IMG/VR virus record: IMGVR_UViG_3300045454_000127
Span: 1 to 45,932 of that record
Source: a virus
Direction: 5' to 3' (one strand)
DNA: 45,932 nucleotides
Shown in pieces: positions 3,930 through 45,613 of this stretch (within the stretch, counting starts at the first letter, position 1; every line of letters begins with the position of its first letter). A program made the translations under genes and the position numbers. A model generated the notes under the pieces. That model was not told the origin of the DNA. It ran no database searches and saw only the letters and a list, made by a program, of their open reading frames with translations.

Positions 3930-4820
3930 TTGCTGCCGCGCGACGTTTCCAACGCGAAGCTTTCCGATTTCGGGCAAGTGCTCGATCCCCGCGAAGCGAT
4001 GGAGCCGATTCTGGCAAAATCGGTTCGCGCGGCGCTGCTTGAATGGCTCGAAGAAATGTGGGCCTTGAAGCAGTTGCAGGAGGTCGGACTTGAGCCGCGC
4101 AAAAAGGCCTTGTTCGAGGGGCCTCCCGGCTGCGGAAAGACGACGCTCGCGCATCACCTGGCGGCGCGTCTTGGGTTGCCGCTTCTCGTGGCCCGCTCTG
4201 ACCGGCTGATCGATGCCTATATCGGCTCGACGGGCCGGAATATCGGGGCGTTGTTCGATGCAGCGGAGAAGTCCGAACGCTGCGTGGTGTTTCTCGACGA
4301 GTTCGATTCTCTGGGCGCGAAGCGCATGGAAGCGCGTCAGGGTGCCGAGCAGGAGAGAAACAACTCCGTAAACGTGCTGCTCGCTGCGATCGAGCGATAC
4401 GACGGAATTCTGCTCGCCGCGACGAACCACGCTGGATCGCTGGATGAGGCGGTCTGGCGGCGCTTCGATATCCAGATCAACATCGAATTGCCCGGTCAGG
4501 ACGAGCGTGAGCGCATTCTTCGGCGCTATCTGAAGCCTTACGTGATCGCCGACGGGCAGCTTGCTGAGCTCGCGCGCGCCTTCGAATGCGCTTCGCCGGC
4601 GCTGATGCGCCAGTGGTGCGAAGGGCTCAAGCGCCATTTCATCATCGGACCAAAGGTCGGATGGAACATGGATCGCGAGCCGGTCATGGCGAAGCTCGTT
4701 CACACCTTTGCACCGCACCCGAATTTGGACAAGCCGCGCCTGTGGCGGCTGAAGGAAAAAGATCCGGCTGTCGGCGCGCTGTCGTGGCCGCTCGCCCGCG
4801 AGGAGGCAAAAGCCACATGA
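3930..4820 (+). CDS. AAA+ ATPase, FtsH/Cdc48-like core without protease
   Basis: A 296-residue classic AAA ATPase. Walker A is GPPGCGKT (64-71), Walker B VVFLDEFD (119-126), sensor 1 is in ILLAATN (Asn166), and arginine fingers are in the VWRRFD segment (177-178). A pore-loop-like YIGS motif lies near 97-100. There is no attached protease or metallo site, so it may remodel protein complexes or DNA-protein assemblies. The TTG at 3930 is preceded by GGGGGAGG at 3914-3921 with suitable spacing; the next ATG (3999) lacks a comparable site. It overlaps the following zinc-ribbon gene by ATGA, and with the GapR-like gene forms a three-gene block. Confidence 0.9.
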   Translation: MLPRDVSNAKLSDFGQVLDPREAMEPILAKSVRAALLEWLEEMWALKQLQEVGLEPRKKALFEGPPGCGKTTLAHHLAARLGLPLLVARSDRLIDAYIGSTGRNIGALFDAAEKSERCVVFLDEFDSLGAKRMEARQGAEQERNNSVNVLLAAIERYDGILLAATNHAGSLDEAVWRRFDIQINIELPGQDERERILRRYLKPYVIADGQLAELARAFECASPALMRQWCEGLKRHFIIGPKVGWNMDREPVMAKLVHTFAPHPNLDKPRLWRLKEKDPAVGALSWPLAREEAKAT

Positions 4821-11129: not shown

Positions 11130-11383
11130 AAGACGACAGCGAAAAGGAGAAGGACGATGCAGCCGAGCGCGTGCTGATCGCGGTCGATGCGTTCACGCCG
11201 GAGACCGCGTCTTACGCACTGACGGTCAATCTTGCTCTCGCGCCGGTCGAATGGGGCGGGAAGCGGGAGCGGGTAGAGGCACTCAAGAACGACGTCGTGA
11301 AGATTCTCAACGCGAGCATCGATGCGGCGCTCGCGACCGAAGCCAACGACCTGAAGCACACACCGACCCAGGGGAGCGCGTGA
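11126..11383 (+). CDS. Hypothetical early protein, 85 aa
   Basis: No family recognised. Starts with GTG inside the previous stop. The N terminus is highly charged (KDDSEKEKDDAAERV) and the rest is a small alpha/beta unit with a long helix (KRERVEALKNDVVKILNASI). It overlaps the cupin-like gene by one base. Confidence 0.6.
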   Translation: MKDDSEKEKDDAAERVLIAVDAFTPETASYALTVNLALAPVEWGGKRERVEALKNDVVKILNASIDAALATEANDLKHTPTQGSA

Positions 11384-14113: not shown

Positions 14114-14382
14114 GCGATCTCGTCTGGAAAAAGTGGTTCGCGTGGCGACCTGCGCAGCTTTCGCACGGCAGCGAGGGCTTCTGGCTCGCGCCGATATGGA
14201 TGCCGCGTCCGTGGCGATGGCTCTGCATGATCGAGCGGACGACAAGCCCTGCAGCTGTCTTCGGGCCGTACTACCGCGATCCGAAGCTTAAGAACCTGCC
14301 GCCTCAGGCGGAGCGTGAACGCGCGCGACTTGCTGTCTCGCGCAACCAGAGCGATCAGTCCGGCATGGAGAAAACACCATGA
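14110..14382 (+). CDS. Hypothetical early protein, 90 aa
   Basis: No family recognised. A Trp-rich small protein (VWKKWFAWRP; APIWMPRPWRWLCMIER) with a charged C-terminal tail. It starts with GTG in the preceding stop and overlaps the replication initiator start by ATGA. No membrane helix is convincing despite the aromatic content. Confidence 0.6.
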   Translation: MSDLVWKKWFAWRPAQLSHGSEGFWLAPIWMPRPWRWLCMIERTTSPAAVFGPYYRDPKLKNLPPQAERERARLAVSRNQSDQSGMEKTP

Positions 14383-15641
14383 GCATTCAGGTCATGACAT
14401 GGGTGTTCCGGCAGACGCTGCCGCCGCGCGAGAAGGTCGCGGCACTCGCGATCGCGGACGAGGCCGACGACACCGGGCTTTGTTTCACCCGCAACTCGCT
14501 GCTCGCGGCGAAGGCCTCGCTTTCGCCCGGTACGTTCAAGCGCGCGGTGAAGCAGCTCGTGGAATGGGGCATGCTCGAAACCAAGCCGCAGTTCACCGTC
14601 ACCGGGCGGCAGACTACGAACCTGATCCAGCTTCGCATCGACCGCGACGTGCCGTTCGAGGTCGCGGAAGCCGTGAAAGAGGAGGGGTCCAAGTTTAACC
14701 CCACCCCCGCCGGGGATTCGGAAAACGCAACGAAACCAGCACCTTCCGATGGTGACCCCATGGAGGGGGTCCAGATTGGACCCCTAGCAAATGCTGCAAA
14801 TTCCGGGGGGGAGGGAGTCAATCTGAACCCCACGGGGGGGTCACAGCTGGACCCCTCGGGGGAGTCAACTGCTGACTCCCCTATAACCCGTTTTAATACC
14901 CCATCTTTAAACTCAGCCGCGGTCGTGCCGAATTTCGGATCGGTCAAACCGCCGCCGCTGCCCGTACGCAAGGCAGCAGGCTCGGCAGGAGAGCAGGAAA
15001 CGATCGACCGCGACTCGTCGCAGTTCATCGCCGAACAGTTCGAGCGGCTGAAGACGATCTACCAGCAGTTCAACAAGGCTACCTTCATCGGCAGCGAGCC
15101 GTTGCCGTGGGCGAAGTTCCGGAAACTGCCGTTCGAGAAGCGGCACGAGGCCGAAACGAAGCTGCCGCTCTACTTCAAGGGCTTCAACGCCGCCTACGCA
15201 CGCTGGCAGACCGCGAAGCCTTCCGAGCGCGGACCAAAACCCAAATGTGCGTCGCTGCGCGACTACATCTGCGGCGAGATGTTCGAAAAGATCGGCTGGC
15301 CTTCCGCGCCCGTGGCGCCGCCGAAGCCGCCGCCGGCTGCGTGGTGTGCCGCCATCAAATCGGCGCCGCGCTCGCAGTTCGACGAGGGTGCGGTGTTCGT
15401 GCAGGCCGAGAGCCAGTCCTTCCGCGACTGGAAGGCGGCCGAGCGGCGCGCGGGCGCGGTCGCGCTCGGTGCGCGCAAGTTCGTGCGGCGCGCCGAAGAC
15501 AGCGACCAGATTGCGTGGAGCGGCTACGGGCTGTTCTACGCATCGGAAACGCCGCCTAGCGAGGAAGATTTCGAGGACCGGATCGCCGGTCGAACAACGT
15601 CCGGAGGCGATCCGGGCAACAGAACAAGGGGTGCGGCATGA
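14379..15641 (+). CDS. Replication initiator-like winged-helix protein
   Basis: A 420-residue protein with an N-terminal winged-helix domain of the kind found in phage replication initiators: VMTWVFRQTLPPREKVAALAIADEADDTG, then FTRNSLLAAKASLSPGTFKRAVKQL and GMLETKPQF (residues 5-80, quoted in parts below 20). Residues about 102-168 are low complexity because their DNA carries five palindromic iterons. The C-terminal half (about 210-400) is conserved-looking and may hold the primosome-contact region. This organisation is that of lambda O, whose gene contains the origin. The next gene overlaps by ATGA. No helicase gene is present, so host DnaB is probably recruited. Confidence 0.8.
   Translation: MSIQVMTWVFRQTLPPREKVAALAIADEADDTGLCFTRNSLLAAKASLSPGTFKRAVKQLVEWGMLETKPQFTVTGRQTTNLIQLRIDRDVPFEVAEAVKEEGSKFNPTPAGDSENATKPAPSDGDPMEGVQIGPLANAANSGGEGVNLNPTGGSQLDPSGESTADSPITRFNTPSLNSAAVVPNFGSVKPPPLPVRKAAGSAGEQETIDRDSSQFIAEQFERLKTIYQQFNKATFIGSEPLPWAKFRKLPFEKRHEAETKLPLYFKGFNAAYARWQTAKPSERGPKPKCASLRDYICGEMFEKIGWPSAPVAPPKPPPAAWCAAIKSAPRSQFDEGAVFVQAESQSFRDWKAAERRAGAVALGARKFVRRAEDSDQIAWSGYGLFYASETPPSEEDFEDRIAGRTTSGGDPGNRTRGAA
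14684..14881 (+). repeat. Palindromic iterons, candidate replication origin
   Basis: Five related dyads with arms near GGGGTYCA and TGRACCCC lie in the initiator gene: 14684-14702, 14766-14784 (GGGGTCCA-GAT-TGGACCCC, perfect), 14813-14831, 14837-14855, and 14859-14881 (GGGGAGTCA-N5-TGACTCCCC, perfect). The first four are 19 bases with a 3-base centre. The final three are packed about 22-24 bases apart, two helical turns. They are the expected binding sites for the encoded initiator. Confidence 0.8.
14881..14915 (+). other. AT-rich segment next to iterons, candidate unwinding element
   Basis: Directly after the last iteron the sequence becomes about two-thirds A+T (TATAA, TTTTAATA and TTTAAACT blocks) in a strongly GC-rich genome. 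In lambda the same order, iterons then an AT-rich stretch inside gene O, marks the origin and its melting site. Confidence 0.65.
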
Positions 15642-16309
15642 CGAAGAAAAACAAGCAGCCGAAGGACTACAAGACGCTCGCGGCGGCGATGGAAGCGAAA
15701 GACGACATGTACGCGCGGGCGCCGAGCGTGCGGCTCGACCGGCCGCGTTCGAAAATCGCGCGGGTCGAGAAGGCGTGGCATGCGATCCGCACCCAGCCCC
15801 TGATGGAGGCGAAGGTCGCGGCGCGGATGATCGGCGACTACGAGTTCGGCAAGATGAAGATCGGGCACTACCTGCCGCTGACCAAGATTTCGTTCGAGCG
15901 CATGCGGCGCATGGTGATCGCCTCGCGCGCGCTGTTTCCCGGCATCGTGTTCGTGCACTTTCCGGACGAGGAGGCGGAAGCCAAGGGCTTCGAGAAGCTG
16001 CGCGGTTGGCCGGGCTTCATCAACATGCTGCGCTCGGGCAACCCGCGCACCGGCCCCTGGGGTGAGATCGAGGCGATCGGCATCCGCACGCTGATGGAGC
16101 AGGAACTACAGTTGTCCACAGCCAGCAAGAAGCTGAAAATGCCCTATGCAGTCGGCGATCGGGTGCAGCTTACGGGCACGAACCCGTTTGCCGGCTTCCG
16201 GGCGATGATCGAGGAAGTTGCGCCGAACGAACGAATCACTATGTTGCTGGACGTGTTCGGCCGGAAGACGCGCATGACCGTCGATCCGGGCGAGGTGATC
16301 AAGGTCTAG
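15638..16309 (+). CDS. NusG paralogue, candidate late antiterminator
   Basis: A 223-residue protein with both NusG domains. The NGN domain (about 47-150) shows AWHAIRTQPLMEAKVAARM, YLPLTKIS and RALFPGIVFVHF followed by GWPGFINML. The KOW domain (about 168-223) reads YAVGDRVQLTGTNPFAGF, then IEEV and a VFGRKTRMTVDPGEV ending typical of NusG. Host NusG binds RNA polymerase; specialised paralogues such as RfaH and LoaP suppress pausing and termination on chosen operons. It is the last early gene, just upstream of a hairpin leader and intrinsic terminator before the late genes, so a late antitermination role is a strong inference. Confidence 0.88.
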   Translation: MTKKNKQPKDYKTLAAAMEAKDDMYARAPSVRLDRPRSKIARVEKAWHAIRTQPLMEAKVAARMIGDYEFGKMKIGHYLPLTKISFERMRRMVIASRALFPGIVFVHFPDEEAEAKGFEKLRGWPGFINMLRSGNPRTGPWGEIEAIGIRTLMEQELQLSTASKKLKMPYAVGDRVQLTGTNPFAGFRAMIEEVAPNERITMLLDVFGRKTRMTVDPGEVIKV

Positions 16310-16373
16310 ACGCAACCGAGGGGGCGTCTGGCACTGATGCCGGGGAGCTTCGAGGGCTCGCTACAACGCAAAC

Positions 16374-16388
16374 GGCTCGAAACGAGCC
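16374..16388 (+). promoter_or_regulatory. Late leader hairpin
   Basis: GGCTCG-AAA-CGAGCC forms a tight 6-bp hairpin in the leader between the NusG paralogue and the late genes. Its 3' arm can instead pair with AGGGCTCG at 16353-16360 (an 8-bp arm with CGAGCCCT, 16383-16390), so two structures compete. It could recruit the antiterminator or act as a weak terminator (CTTTG follows). Confidence 0.5.
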
Positions 16389-16427
16389 CTTTGCTCCTGC
16401 CGGAGGCATGCAGACCGAAAACGAATG

Positions 16428-16452
16428 ACCGCGCCATCGAGCGCGGTTTTTT
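16428..16452 (+). terminator. Intrinsic terminator before late operon
   Basis: ACCGCGC-CATCGA-GCGCGGT followed by six T residues: a 7-bp GC-rich stem with a clean U tract. It lies 118 bases after the NusG paralogue and 11 bases before the first late gene, so it should separate early from late transcription unless read through. Confidence 0.88.
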
Positions 16453-16463
16453 CGTTCTAGGGC

Positions 16464-17225
16464 ATGCTCACCATCGGCGTGAAAACCAACGTCAACGAGA
16501 TCAAGCGCGTCCTGAACGACCAGCGGCGCCGCAAAGCCCCGCTCGCGGTCGCGGTTGCGCTGACCAAGACCGCGAAAAGCGTGCAGCAGTCGCAGTATCT
16601 CGAAATGGCCTCGGTCTTCGACCAGCCGACCCGCTTCACGCTGAACTCGCTCTACGTGCGTCCGGCCAAGCCCAACGATCCGAAGGCGAGCGTTGAGTTC
16701 AAGGAGGGCTTCGGCTCGATCCCGGCGTTCCGCTACCTGCAGCCGCAGATCGAAGGCGGCACGCGCGTGCACAAAGGCTTCGAGCGCGCGCTGATCCGGG
16801 CAGGCCACATGCGCAAGGACGAGTTCGCCGTACCCGGCAAGCATGCCGAACTCGACCAGCACGGCAACATGAAGGGCAGCTTCATCACGCGCGTGCTGTC
16901 GCAGCTAGGCGCTGCCGAGCATTCTTCAGGGTACATGGCCAACATGACCAAACGGTCCCGGAAAGGGAACGTGAAGCGGGCAGGCGGCCGGTATTTCATC
17001 ATGGGGCGTGGTCGGACCGGCAGCCGCGCTGAGCGAAACGTGCAGCCGGGCATCTACCTCCGCGCGCCCACCGGGGCGGCCTACCTGATCATCGCGTTCG
17101 TGAAAGCGCCGAAGTACCAGAAGCGGTACGACCACTATGGTGTCGCCGAGCGCGTGGTCGATCTCGAACTGGAACTCGAAATGTCGAAGGCCTTCGAGAA
17201 GTACTGCGGCATGCCGCGCCGCTGA
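16464..17225 (+). CDS. First late gene, putative virion-associated protein, 253 aa
   Basis: I do not recognise a characterised family with certainty. The protein is basic and begins with a helix seen in tail-completion-like phage proteins (NEIKRVLNDQRRRKAPLAVA; ALTKTAKSVQQSQYLEMASVFDQPTRFTLNSLYV). It then has a beta-rich middle (FRYLQPQIEGGTRVHKGFER) and a C-terminal segment around GIYLRAPTGAAYLIIAF. Related unnamed proteins occur next to terminase genes in other lambdoid phages. It is the first gene after the leader terminator. Confidence 0.7.
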   Translation: MLTIGVKTNVNEIKRVLNDQRRRKAPLAVAVALTKTAKSVQQSQYLEMASVFDQPTRFTLNSLYVRPAKPNDPKASVEFKEGFGSIPAFRYLQPQIEGGTRVHKGFERALIRAGHMRKDEFAVPGKHAELDQHGNMKGSFITRVLSQLGAAEHSSGYMANMTKRSRKGNVKRAGGRYFIMGRGRTGSRAERNVQPGIYLRAPTGAAYLIIAFVKAPKYQKRYDHYGVAERVVDLELELEMSKAFEKYCGMPRR

Positions 17226-17330
17226 AATCGCCGTAAATGGCGAAGTGGAATGGCAACGGGTCCTTCCTGCGGTTCTGCCAACTGCGGGTAATTCGAACCC
17301 CGGCTATTCAGCAGTCTCGCGAGTTTTTAG

Positions 17331-17370
17331 AAGCCTAAACAGACTAAAGAAAAAGCCTAAAGAACTAAAG
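17331..17370 (+). repeat. A-rich direct repeats upstream of small terminase
   Basis: AAGCCTAAACAGACTAAAG (17331-17349) is repeated almost exactly as AAGCCTAAAGAACTAAAG (17353-17370), 22 bases apart. The tract is purine- and A-rich in a GC-rich genome, with an inverted match (GTTTTTAG) just before it. The 154-base gap it occupies also holds TCGCC-N6-GGCGA at 17229-17244. A terminase-binding (cos or pac) site is the natural guess. Confidence 0.5.
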
Positions 17371-17379
17371 GGGCGCGTA

Positions 17380-18054
17380 GTGAATGGCTCTGCGGTTCCG
17401 GAACTTCTCAGCAAAGGCGAGTACGCGCGGCTGATCGGTGTGACGCCCGGACGGGTATCTCAATACATCTCCGAGGGAAAGCTTTCAGGCGAGGCCCTCA
17501 AGGGCGAGGGCCGGACCGCACAAATCCGCGTTGCCGTCGCGAACCAGCAGTTGAACCTGCGTCTCGATATCTCGCAGCGGCTCGGTAATGGCATCAACAC
17601 GCGGCTCGATCAGGGACCGCGTCCAGCGGCGGCTGACGCACTTCCGCTGGCAGCGCCGCCGGCCGGGGATTCGGTCGAGGAACAGATCAAGCGCGCACGG
17701 CTGCGCCAGATCGAACTCGACAACCGCAAGAGTGCCGAAGACGCGGCCCTTCGGGCCGGCAAGCTGATCGACGCCGAGGCGGTACGTCAAAGCCAAGGCC
17801 GCGCCTTCGCCCGCCTGGTCGCAGGCTTCGAGGGCTCGCTCGCCGACTTCGCGACCGCGATCGCGAACAAGTTCAGCCTTCAGCAGCGCGACGTGCTGCA
17901 CGAACTCAAGATGGAATGGCGCAACGTGCGCGCTCGGAATGCCAAGGATCTGCAGACGGCGGCGGAACAGCTGCCGCAGGAATCGCAGATCGAGCTCGAA
18001 GACGGCGCCGCGATCGACGAAGCCGAGCCCGTGCCGGAAGACGCCGCCGCATGA
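17380..18054 (+). CDS. Terminase small subunit (Nu1-like)
   Basis: A 224-residue DNA-packaging protein. Residues about 10-40 form a helix-turn-helix (LLSKGEYARLIGVTPGRVSQ then YISEGKL), the standard Nu1-type DNA-binding start. The centre has RARLRQIELDNRKSAEDAALRAGKL and an ALL-helix region, and the C terminus is acidic, as needed to contact the large subunit. GTG 17380 is preferred because AAGGGG lies 6-7 bases upstream; the frame is open further upstream but without a site. The stop overlaps the large subunit start by ATGA. Confidence 0.82.
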   Translation: MNGSAVPELLSKGEYARLIGVTPGRVSQYISEGKLSGEALKGEGRTAQIRVAVANQQLNLRLDISQRLGNGINTRLDQGPRPAAADALPLAAPPAGDSVEEQIKRARLRQIELDNRKSAEDAALRAGKLIDAEAVRQSQGRAFARLVAGFEGSLADFATAIANKFSLQQRDVLHELKMEWRNVRARNAKDLQTAAEQLPQESQIELEDGAAIDEAEPVPEDAAA

Positions 18055-19994
18055 CGATCCACATCGTGAACGCCGAGCGGCTGGCGATGGAAGCGGCCGC
18101 GGCGGCCATCAAGCCGCCGCCGCCGGTCGACTATCTTGCCTGGGCCGAGCGCAACATCGTCTTCACGGAGCGCGAGAGCCAGTTTCCCGGCCCATACAAC
18201 CGGGACCTGTTTCGCTATTTCGACGAGCCGCTGCGCGCGCTTTCGCCAGACGATCCGTGCCGCATCGTGACCGTGATGGGCTCCGCCCAGGTCGGCAAGA
18301 CCGTCATCGGCAACGTGTTCACGCTCGGGTCCGTGCACATGGATCCCGGCGACTTTCTCGTCATTCATCCGACCGACGACAACGCGCGGCGCTGGTCGAA
18401 GATGAAACTGACGCCGATGCTGCGGAACACGACCGCGCTGTCGCCGCTGTTTTCGGTCAAGTCGCGCGACGGCTCGGACTCCGTGCTCTACAAGGAACGC
18501 ACCGACGGTCTCGGCGCGATCCTGATTTCCGGTGCGAACTCACCAGCCTCGCTTTCGCAGGTCACGGTGCGGCGGCAGTCGCAGGACGATCTCTCGAAGT
18601 GGGAGGTCAACGACGCCGGCGACCCCGAGGCGCAGGCCGACAACCGCTCCCGCGGCGTCGTCTTCGCGAAGATTCTGAAGATATCGACGCCGCTCGTGAT
18701 GCCGGGATGCCGCATCACGAAGAACTACGAAGCCGGAAGTCAGGAGCGCCCATACGTTCCTTGCCCGTCATGCAAGTACAAGCAGGTTCTCGAATGGGAG
18801 AACATGCTGGAGCATCTCGATCCGGCGAAGCCCGAGGACGCGCACTTCACCTGCGTCTCCTGCGGGGTCGAGATCAGGGAGCATCACCGCAAGCAGCTGC
18901 TCTCCGGACTCGAGTGGCGCGCCGAGAATCCGGGCGCGAAGCGCTGGCACAGGTCATTCTGGATTTGGTCGGCCTACTCGTTCCTGCAGACATGGGAGCA
19001 GATCGCCCGCGAATGGTTCAAGTCCAAGGGCGATGCCGACGCGGAGAAGACGTTCGCGAACGATACGACCGGCAAGGCCTACCGCGGCGCGTCTGAATCG
19101 CCTCCATGGGAAAAGCTTCGCGACCGCGCGAGCGCCTCGGACTACGCGCGCGGCCAGATCCCGCAGGGTGCGATCCTGCTGTTCATGGGGCTCGACTGCC
19201 AGATCGACCGCGTCGAGTGGCAACTGGTCGGCTTCGGCCGCGACCGCCGGACCTTCGTGGTCGACTACGGAATCGAGCCCGGGCACATCACCGACGAGAA
19301 GTGCCAGGAGCGGCTGCTCGCACGGCTGAACATCCAGCGCTGGAAGAATAGCTACGGCCAGCCGCTCGGCGTCGATCTCGCCGCGATCGACGGCAACGCA
19401 TGGACCGAAGACGTCTGGGAATTCGCGAAGAAAGTCCCGATGTCGAAACTGATCATGGTGCGCGGCCGCGGCGAGGATGCCGCACCGCGTCTGATGCGTG
19501 TGAAGAAGGAACGCAACACGCGAACCGGCAAGCTCCTGCGGTATGCCAAGCGCTTCTACAACTTCAACACGTCGATCCTGAAGATGGCGCTCTATCGCAA
19601 CGCCACGAACGAAGACCGCGAGAAGCGCGGCTTCGTCGGCTTCCCGCGCGGGCTGGAGGATACCTATTTCCAGCAGCTCGCCGCCGAGCGGCGCGTCATG
19701 GTCAAGCGGCACGGCTTTCTGGTGCCGCGCTGGGAGATCGATCCCGGTCAGGCGAACGAAGCGCTCGACACCTACTGCCAGGCCTGGGCGGCGGCGACCA
19801 AGTTCGGCGTGATCGACATGCCCGAAGCGGTCTGGGACCGGTACGAAGGCGAGCGCGAAGTCGCGCCGAAGGAAGTGCAGGGCGATCTCGAGGATTTGCT
19901 GCACCGGCCGGCGGCTGCGAAGCCCGACGCCAAGCCCGACAAAAATCCCGCGAAGGCCACACCCTTCGCAAGCCTGTCCAAGCTGAATCAGTGA
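18051..19994 (+). CDS. Terminase large subunit (GpA family)
   Basis: A 647-residue packaging ATPase and nuclease of the lambda gpA family. The ATPase Walker A is GSAQVGKT (77-84), preceded by YNRDLFRYFDEP and followed by FLVIHPTDDNARRWSK. A zinc-ribbon-like region with CPSC and CVSC pairs lies near 230-275. The nuclease domain begins near residue 380 at FMGLDCQIDRVEWQLVGF, with Asp in place of the family GVD..DRLE motif, and ends after YCQAWAAATKFGV. The C terminus is Lys/Ala/Pro-rich. It cuts concatemers at cos and drives DNA into proheads with the small subunit. Confidence 0.95.
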   Translation: MTIHIVNAERLAMEAAAAAIKPPPPVDYLAWAERNIVFTERESQFPGPYNRDLFRYFDEPLRALSPDDPCRIVTVMGSAQVGKTVIGNVFTLGSVHMDPGDFLVIHPTDDNARRWSKMKLTPMLRNTTALSPLFSVKSRDGSDSVLYKERTDGLGAILISGANSPASLSQVTVRRQSQDDLSKWEVNDAGDPEAQADNRSRGVVFAKILKISTPLVMPGCRITKNYEAGSQERPYVPCPSCKYKQVLEWENMLEHLDPAKPEDAHFTCVSCGVEIREHHRKQLLSGLEWRAENPGAKRWHRSFWIWSAYSFLQTWEQIAREWFKSKGDADAEKTFANDTTGKAYRGASESPPWEKLRDRASASDYARGQIPQGAILLFMGLDCQIDRVEWQLVGFGRDRRTFVVDYGIEPGHITDEKCQERLLARLNIQRWKNSYGQPLGVDLAAIDGNAWTEDVWEFAKKVPMSKLIMVRGRGEDAAPRLMRVKKERNTRTGKLLRYAKRFYNFNTSILKMALYRNATNEDREKRGFVGFPRGLEDTYFQQLAAERRVMVKRHGFLVPRWEIDPGQANEALDTYCQAWAAATKFGVIDMPEAVWDRYEGEREVAPKEVQGDLEDLLHRPAAAKPDAKPDKNPAKATPFASLSKLNQ

Positions 19995-25150: not shown

Positions 25151-25181
25151 AAAACCCGCCGCTTCACCGCGGCGGGTTTTT
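25151..25181 (+). terminator. Strong intrinsic terminator after capsid gene
   Basis: CCCGCCGC-TTCACC-GCGGCGGG (25155-25176), an 8-bp GC stem, flanked by A and T runs that extend it, with five T residues. It lies inside the late operon between capsid and FII genes, so downstream tail genes need readthrough or another promoter. Confidence 0.9.
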
Positions 25182-25205
25182 GCTTCTAGGGCAAGGAGAC
25201 CGTGC

Positions 25206-45109: not shown

Positions 45110-45135
45110 AACCCGGCCCTCGCGCCGGGCTTTTT
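45110..45135 (+). terminator. Intrinsic terminator next to promoter
   Basis: CCCGGC-CCTCGC-GCCGGG (45112-45129), a 6-bp GC stem, followed by C and five T residues. It can end transcripts leaving the last late gene and would also stop the promoter at 45077 within about 25 bases. Confidence 0.85.
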
Positions 45136-45151
45136 CGTCCAGGGGTGTGCG

Positions 45152-45172
45152 AACGCGATGGCGTCGCGTTTT
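45152..45172 (+). terminator. Second terminator-like hairpin
   Basis: AACGCGA-TGGCG-TCGCGTT with two further T residues. A 7-bp stem with a short U tract, it may back up the terminator at 45110. Confidence 0.5.
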
Positions 45173-45267
45173 CGCCGCCCTCCTTACGCACGAACGGCTG
45201 ACCGCCGCGCGTGCGGGGCGTTTCCTCCCTAGACTTGTGGTCTGAAGCTTCGGCTGACGTTTCCACG

Positions 45268-45303
45268 AAGCCCGGTCGCGCCTGTCGCGGCCGGGCTTTT
45301 CTC
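45268..45303 (+). terminator. Terminator facing higA
   Basis: GCCCGG (45270-45275) pairs with CCGGGC (45291-45296); a T-G pair and an inner CGCG/CGCG stem extend it to 11 bp, followed by four T residues and a T-rich tail. It protects the leftward higBA genes from rightward transcription. Read leftward its U tract is only two bases, so it is weak for higBA itself. Confidence 0.75.
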
Positions 45304-45304
45304 T

Positions 45305-45613
45305 TTACAGCTTCGCGATCGGCTTGATCTTCGCGATGCGCGAAGCGAGCTCCTTCTCGGCGTGGAAAATGTCGTAGTCGGCCTGCTGGGCGAGCCAGAT
45401 CGCGCCGCCGTTGCCGATGTAAGCCCCGATCAGGGCGGCGAACTCGGGCGTCACCGGGGTTTCGCCGCGCAGGATCTTCGCCGCCCCGTTCGCCGAATAG
45501 CCGATCGCCTCGGCGGCGGCGCGGCCGGAAATGCGGTTGTCGTCGAGAATACTCTTGATGATCGTGCCGGGGTGGATCGGGGCAGCGGTGCGTTTGCCTG
45601 CCTTGTAGGGCAT
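45305..45613 (-). CDS. higA: HigA-type antitoxin
   Basis: A 102-residue antitoxin with an XRE HTH domain: PIHPGTIIKSILDD (the HigA family start), then ISGRAAAEAIGYSANGAAKI and LRGETPVTPEFAALIGAYIG, and an IWLAQQADYDIFHAEKE end. It neutralises HigB and probably represses the operon. The ATG at 45613 has GGAG five bases upstream and lies 40 bases after the higB stop; an upstream ATG at 45697 would overlap higB by 44 bases and add an unrelated leader. Confidence 0.9.
   Translation of the reverse strand: MPYKAGKRTAAPIHPGTIIKSILDDNRISGRAAAEAIGYSANGAAKILRGETPVTPEFAALIGAYIGNGGAIWLAQQADYDIFHAEKELASRIAKIKPIAKL

Follow-up and report, generated by a model that had tools for sequence, protein, structure and literature searches.

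The window, by which we mean the whole 45,932 bases of an IMG/VR virus record, comes from a temperate phage whose terminase and portal proteins are of the lambda family according to Pfam and PHROG matches. A repressor gene (13-825; PHROG) is read leftward, while methylase and replication initiator genes (PHROG) are read rightward ahead of the late genes. A gene for a replication-initiator-like protein (14379-15641, plus strand; HTH_36 and O-like PHROG matches) lies directly upstream of a gene for a NusG paralogue, P0001 (15638-16309, plus strand; 223 amino acids). The nusG stop codon is followed on the same strand by an untranslated leader of 117 nt (16310-16426), an intrinsic terminator (16427-16455), and the first late gene (16464-17225), whose product matches phrog_1924, 'minor tail protein' (PHROG, 5.5e-66). 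The late genes continue rightward with the small terminase subunit (17380-18054; phrog_57), the large terminase subunit of the GpA family (18051-19994; Pfam and PHROG), the portal, and the major head protein, and they include genes for head closure, tape measure, tail fibre, and endolysin. With the replication initiator on one side and the late genes on the other, nusG is the last early gene, as an earlier note on this sequence had stated; the 154 bases which that note counted between it and the first late gene are exact (16310-16463). One gene beyond the terminator, a further stretch of about 150 nt is noncoding (17226-17379). Between the first late gene and the small terminase subunit gene (17258-17380, plus strand), GGGTCCTTCCTG...CTGCGGGTA is followed by GCCTAAA/CTAAAG repeats, and the same combination occurs upstream of the small subunit gene in another contig (L002, ~11160-11290). 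This cos-like region is a candidate, and a probable, cos site with terminase-binding repeats.

The product of 15638-16309 has an NGN domain at approximately residues 45-135 (Pfam NusG at 28.7 bits, cut-off 22.2) and matches PHROG_6386, 'transcription antiterminator' (1.2e-9). A KOW domain at approximately residues 171-222 was found by alignment to a solved NusG. The AlphaFold model, computed with 57 homologues, contains the NGN domain and a beta-barrel KOW domain; its mean pLDDT is 77, rising to 94-97 across residues ~171-223. In a Foldseek search with this model, NusG was the top match, and RfaH and 8f5g, 'NusG-RNA complex', were also recovered. P0001 is a member of the NusG/Spt5 superfamily, and the description of a complete NGN-KOW protein was correct. 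The C-terminal domain is predicted in one state, a beta barrel, with which a switch is still compatible. Among curated NCBIfam models, the best score was to RfaH (44.7 bits, cut-off 144.5); P0001 failed this cut-off and those for the housekeeping NusG equivalog (41.4 bits, cut-off 135.7), UpxY (36.2 bits, cut-off 100), and LoaP (26.5 bits, cut-off 125). A scan of about 30 window proteins against the PHROGs revealed no second match to an antiterminator family. Peptide patterns detected no close relatives of P0001 in the viral_contigs or genome_contigs collections, and the first late gene and the initiator, used as baits, recovered none. A search of 385 genomes from the class to which genome G001 belongs gave only weak NusG-like matches to P0001 (25-32%). 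Two records of uncultured phages, LR745206 (635 kb) and LR756501 (735 kb), also encode NusG homologues, with 24-25% identity to P0001.

The terminator ahead of the late genes consists of GACCGCGC, CATCGA, and GCGCGGTT, followed by TTTTCGT; its stem was calculated at -13.5 kcal/mol. The hairpin (16427-16448) with its U tract begins 117 nt past the nusG stop codon, and from the U tract to the first late start there are 9 nt. Terminators were called where a stem of at least 6 pairs reached -8 kcal/mol or better and 5 T occurred in 8 positions. By this rule the whole window contains four plus-strand terminators, beginning at 16427, 25154, 45112, and 45269, and the one at 16427-16448 is the only strong one within 1-25153. 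The strong terminator proposed for this position is therefore present. The earlier note placed two more inside the late operon, and this holds for one (25154-25184, hairpin 25154-25177), which lies between the major head protein and head-closure genes; the other two, at 45112-45136 (hairpin 45112-45129) and 45269-45305 (hairpin 45269-45297), lie beyond the last late gene, the second of them closing the late region.

The strongest hairpin in the leader is GCAAA-C-GGCTCG-AAA-CGAGCC-C-TTTGC (16368-16394), with which a GGGCTCG/CGAGCCC pairing competes. The suggestion of two competing hairpins survives to the extent that GGGCTCG/CGAGCCC and the local hairpin 16374-16388 are mutually exclusive on paper; however, these hairpins are insignificant alone, with z -1.5 for the leader minus its terminator (14 of 200 shuffles folded equally well), and have no detectable relatives that would lend comparative support. 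With the terminator included, the fold reached z -2.9. The window leader did not match the family RNA models R1 and R2, nor did it convincingly match any fetched locus, and Rfam gave chance-level matches at most in the window. Two covariance models, run with filters off, ruled out that the window leader is a diverged member of the RNA family. The motif C(UNCG)G is absent from 16310-16463, and the RfaH ops site, GGCGGTAGNNTG, is absent from the window with up to one mismatch allowed. No promoter stands out upstream of the terminator in the window, where two weak sites were found against 3.1 expected.

The order initiator, nusG, gap, and late genes is common to the rhizobial phages phi2LM21, phi3LM21, and PPF1 (Sinorhizobium, Rhizobium) and to Nostoc phage Nsp-JY10; in all four, the gene in this slot is already annotated as NusG or as an antitermination protein. 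Using the phi2LM21 protein as query, 28 viral contigs were recovered. In these contigs, the nusG stop codon is followed by a noncoding stretch of ~160 nt with ~80% column identity, then by GGCGGCCGAGAGGTCGCCTTTTT or a similar sequence, and then by the first late gene. The same arrangement with a covarying RNA occurs in Sinorhizobium, Rhizobium, and Nostoc phages and in at least 120 viral contigs.

A seven-helix structure of this RNA was read by hand and tested for covariation afterwards. In 23 leaders, 31 cells with double changes supported the pairings, against 8.4 +/- 2.2 in shuffled alignments and 3-9 or fewer when the structure was slid along the alignment. With 95 distinct leaders, the count was 453, compared to 144 +/- 12 after shuffling and 48-56 after sliding, and paired cells made up 92.8%, compared to 23-49% for slid structures, although this larger alignment was fitted to the model and thus leans towards the structure. 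A covariance model built without phi3LM21 and the Nostoc phage recovered the RNA in both, at 65 and 56 bits, respectively. The core comprises a closing helix, GATCYG/CRGRYC, that encloses a variable domain, a hairpin GCCYTGA...TCARGGC, and the element AGTGC-NNNN-GCTATG. Among the 120 matches listed, NNNN was GNRA in 66 and UACN in 44; therefore, this element is probably a small tetraloop hairpin. Reading the conserved GCTATG as a -10 box was ruled out because such a hexamer would be variable at its final two positions. The structure is visible by comparison alone, since the phi2LM21 leader, folded singly, did not improve on its shuffles (z -0.7); most of it was also missed by RNAalifold when given a plain MAFFT alignment. 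Rfam 15 gave no gathering match in seven leader loci, and the matches in small loci were at chance level. Three loci carry a second type of leader RNA, CCAGCCAACGAAGACGCCGG..CGGCGGAGTTGGCGC..TATGGG (L063, 4017-4320; L252, 3323-3500; L236, 850-1100), likely a variant form of the main RNA. Transfer RNA-like or inserted stretches lie between RNA and terminator in L236, L063 (~4190-4310), and L012 (8800-8960); despite these inserts, the terminator stays directly 5' of the first late gene. ARAGORN called no tRNA in the pieces from L063 and L012.

The linkage between RNA and nusG was assessed with a bait that made no use of the protein, a 26-nt pattern from the 3' part of the RNA, which matched at least 120 viral contigs. 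Among the 120 matches listed, six could not be assessed because the fetched DNA begins too near the RNA; in all 114 others, a NusG-family reading frame ends 88-151 nt upstream. A terminator passing the strict rule was present 3' of the RNA in 76 of 111 listed loci, compared to 1 of 1110 shuffles; its start was nearly always no more than 30 nt past the RNA, for the most part at 16-30 nt. Under a relaxed rule, 102 of 115 listed loci had one, and the median distance from the hairpin end to the next reading frame in these 102 relatives was 25 nt. About seven or eight of the RNA-carrying relatives listed lack an obvious terminator. Applied to 397 genomes of one order, the covariance model found the RNA in two; it is therefore rare there, consistent with its being phage-borne. 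In one of the two (L065), nusG ends where the RNA begins.

In the closest relatives, synonymous conservation climbs at the last nusG codons (0.77 compared to ~0.56). The triplet TTG is fixed 23 nt before the end of the nusG stop codon in 61 of 69 non-redundant loci, compared to an average of 1.07 loci at other places. The amino acids encoded at this site vary (L/I/V, then A/D/E), and the L/I/V codons end in T in 61 of 61 cases, against 23% in nusG bodies; because the loci are related by descent, neither count represents independent events. A degenerate -10-like stretch follows 17-18 nt past the TTG, just after the nusG stop codon. The consensus promoter of rhizobia is of the CTTGAC-N17 type, and the two elements together look like such a promoter. 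A -35-like element so placed, within the last part of nusG, would have late transcription begin at the RNA and proceed to the terminator.

In a maximum-likelihood tree, the NusG sequences with the RNA group together (65 rows, 97/88); the sister group consists of eight rows, including L063, L252, and five RNA-carrying loci. P0001, with 12-24% identity to the RNA-carrying family, falls outside this clade at a poorly supported position. Among phages with a terminase of the window's type, about twenty have a nusG-like gene in the slot, and in most of these a strong terminator lies 75-300 nt further on. Leader types differ between NusG lineages: L192 and L194 share one, and L063, L252, and L236 another. 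The leaders of L193 (after 5211) and L201 (after 5288), whose nusG genes are nearer to the host NusG, contain several copies of a GCCACC block and in their C-richness resemble Rho-binding sites.

In eight relatives without nusG (L189, L191, L224, L235, L239, L250, L253, and L255), the slot before the late genes is occupied by a phrog_9306 protein (for example, L250, 4142-4951), and in two by a phrog_21451 protein (L213, 4524-5372; L219, 4130-5002). The phrog_9306 proteins are candidates for new late antiterminators or activators. By eye, a TTGACA-like sequence and a hairpin followed by T residues lie downstream of both types of gene; the strict rule calls no terminator there. One phrog_21451 protein had a weak match to DUF6456 (E 0.012, below cut-off). 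DUF6456 is a label carried by homologues of GafA (PMC9638019), and GafZ, a Caulobacter relative of GafA, is a demonstrated antiterminator (PMC11150451). Judged from position, this looks like a slot for late regulators that NusG fills in some phages and other proteins in others.

We consider P0001 to be, with fair probability, a specialised NusG paralogue that acts as a late-gene antiterminator. The protein would be made from the early operon and join RNA polymerase as it crosses the leader 3' of its own gene; the modified polymerase would read through the terminator at 16427-16455 and then the internal one at 25154-25177, and continue as far as the double terminator at 45112-45297. For the relatives, the recruiting signal would be the structured RNA with which the late transcript opens, this transcript being initiated from the promoter in the nusG 3' end. 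This transcript would start at or in the RNA, meet the terminator, and depend on antitermination to reach the late genes. RNA binding, readthrough, and timing in the lytic phase are the steps that we infer. The resemblance to LoaP or RfaH systems drawn in the earlier note stands for the architecture, which is conserved in many phages and is most like that of LoaP; on the other hand, P0001 fails both cut-offs and the ops site is missing. The best reading of the comparative data is LoaP-like late antitermination in the family and the same kind of control in the window.

The alternative that survives best, although we think it unlikely, is that the terminator merely closes the early operon, that NusG is an RfaH-like general anti-polarity factor blocking Rho/NusG on long phage transcripts, and that the late genes are served by a promoter of their own farther on, such as one within the first late gene or the cos region. 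RfaH-type paralogues chiefly counter Rho (PMC7819879). The noncoding stretch at 17226-17379 could accommodate a separate late promoter, and the failure to identify a promoter 5' of the terminator in the window fits this explanation as well. A strong late promoter downstream of the terminator had been named as evidence that would count against antitermination; at the junction itself, however, the 9 nt in the window and the median of 25 nt in the relatives leave no room for one. In the relatives, the sole promoter signal is upstream of the terminator, inside nusG, and a dedicated RNA consistently occupies the interval from nusG to the terminator, which argues against simple closure of the early operon.

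It is quite improbable that the leader RNA acts alone, in the manner of HK022 put, or as an attenuator that responds to another signal, with nusG as a passenger in the operon. The family RNA is larger than the hairpin of LoaP, and put RNA antiterminates without a phage protein (PMC9378689). Against this, NusG adjoins the RNA in every testable listed locus despite extreme divergence of the protein, and NusG clade and leader type go together. The least probable explanation, that the phage protein displaces host NusG globally or makes termination stronger in the lysogen, the leader playing no particular part, can draw on the stimulation of intrinsic termination by housekeeping NusG in Bacillus (PMC8060035), but the fixed place beside RNA and terminator at the early/late boundary of the relatives speaks against it, and a lytic early gene would be an odd place for a lysogeny factor.

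Specialised NusG paralogues control antibiotic, capsule, toxin, and conjugation operons. The literature searched contains no report of one as a phage late regulator; such genes are nonetheless annotated 'NusG' in deposited phages. A broader proposal, which we favour with slightly more reserve, is that mostly alphaproteobacterial temperate phages use a NusG late switch composed of a late promoter in the nusG 3' end, a covarying RNA that recruits the protein, and a terminator; that the slot is modular, with phrog_9306 and phrog_21451 as other occupants; and that the window's branch follows the same logic with a different recruitment signal. If true, this would name the late switch of many such phages, provide a compact natural set of protein, RNA, and terminator for studying NusG-like recruitment by RNA, and add an RNA family new to Rfam, with more than 100 sequences, for structure work.

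The closest precedent is LoaP, for which a NusG paralogue, a leader hairpin, and an intrinsic terminator have been described (PMC12691694). As in the Bacillus LoaP/dfn leader, the paralogue is encoded beside the operon that it would control, and a leader RNA element and an intrinsic terminator precede further terminators downstream (PMC12691694); in the window, the leader of the adjacent operon contains the terminator at 16427-16455. In contrast to LoaP, for which P0001 scores 26.5 of the 125 bits, the target would be a phage late operon, and the RNA of the relatives is a multi-helix structure of ~115-175 nt rather than a small UNCG hairpin, with GNRA or UACN, not UNCG, in the loop of its 3' mini-hairpin. 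As with RfaH, the protein is an NGN-KOW paralogue; unlike RfaH, it would act beside its own gene, no ops site is present, its score is below the cut-off, and its KOW domain is, in the one state predicted, a barrel with no sign of an alpha-helical form.

As with lambda Q, the regulator is the last early gene. In the relatives, the predicted promoter lies just upstream of an RNA element and a terminator before the late genes, as in lambda pR'-tR'; in the window, the terminator is in place, whereas no promoter stands out. Unlike Q, which uses a DNA site at a promoter-proximal pause, the regulator has a NusG fold, recruitment would apparently be via RNA, and in the relatives the promoter lies inside the regulator gene. 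GafZ lets polymerase pass a terminator in the phage-like late cluster of the Caulobacter gene transfer agent (PMC11150451). The proposal made here is likewise for an alphaproteobacterial antiterminator of a phage-like late cluster; GafZ, however, is an unrelated protein that works with host NusA, NusG, and NusE, whereas here a NusG paralogue fills the slot. HK022 put RNA, which suppresses termination with no phage protein (PMC9378689), resembles the family RNA in being structured, made early in a phage transcript, and tied to antitermination; in contrast to put, the family RNA has a phage protein encoded beside it in every testable listed locus.
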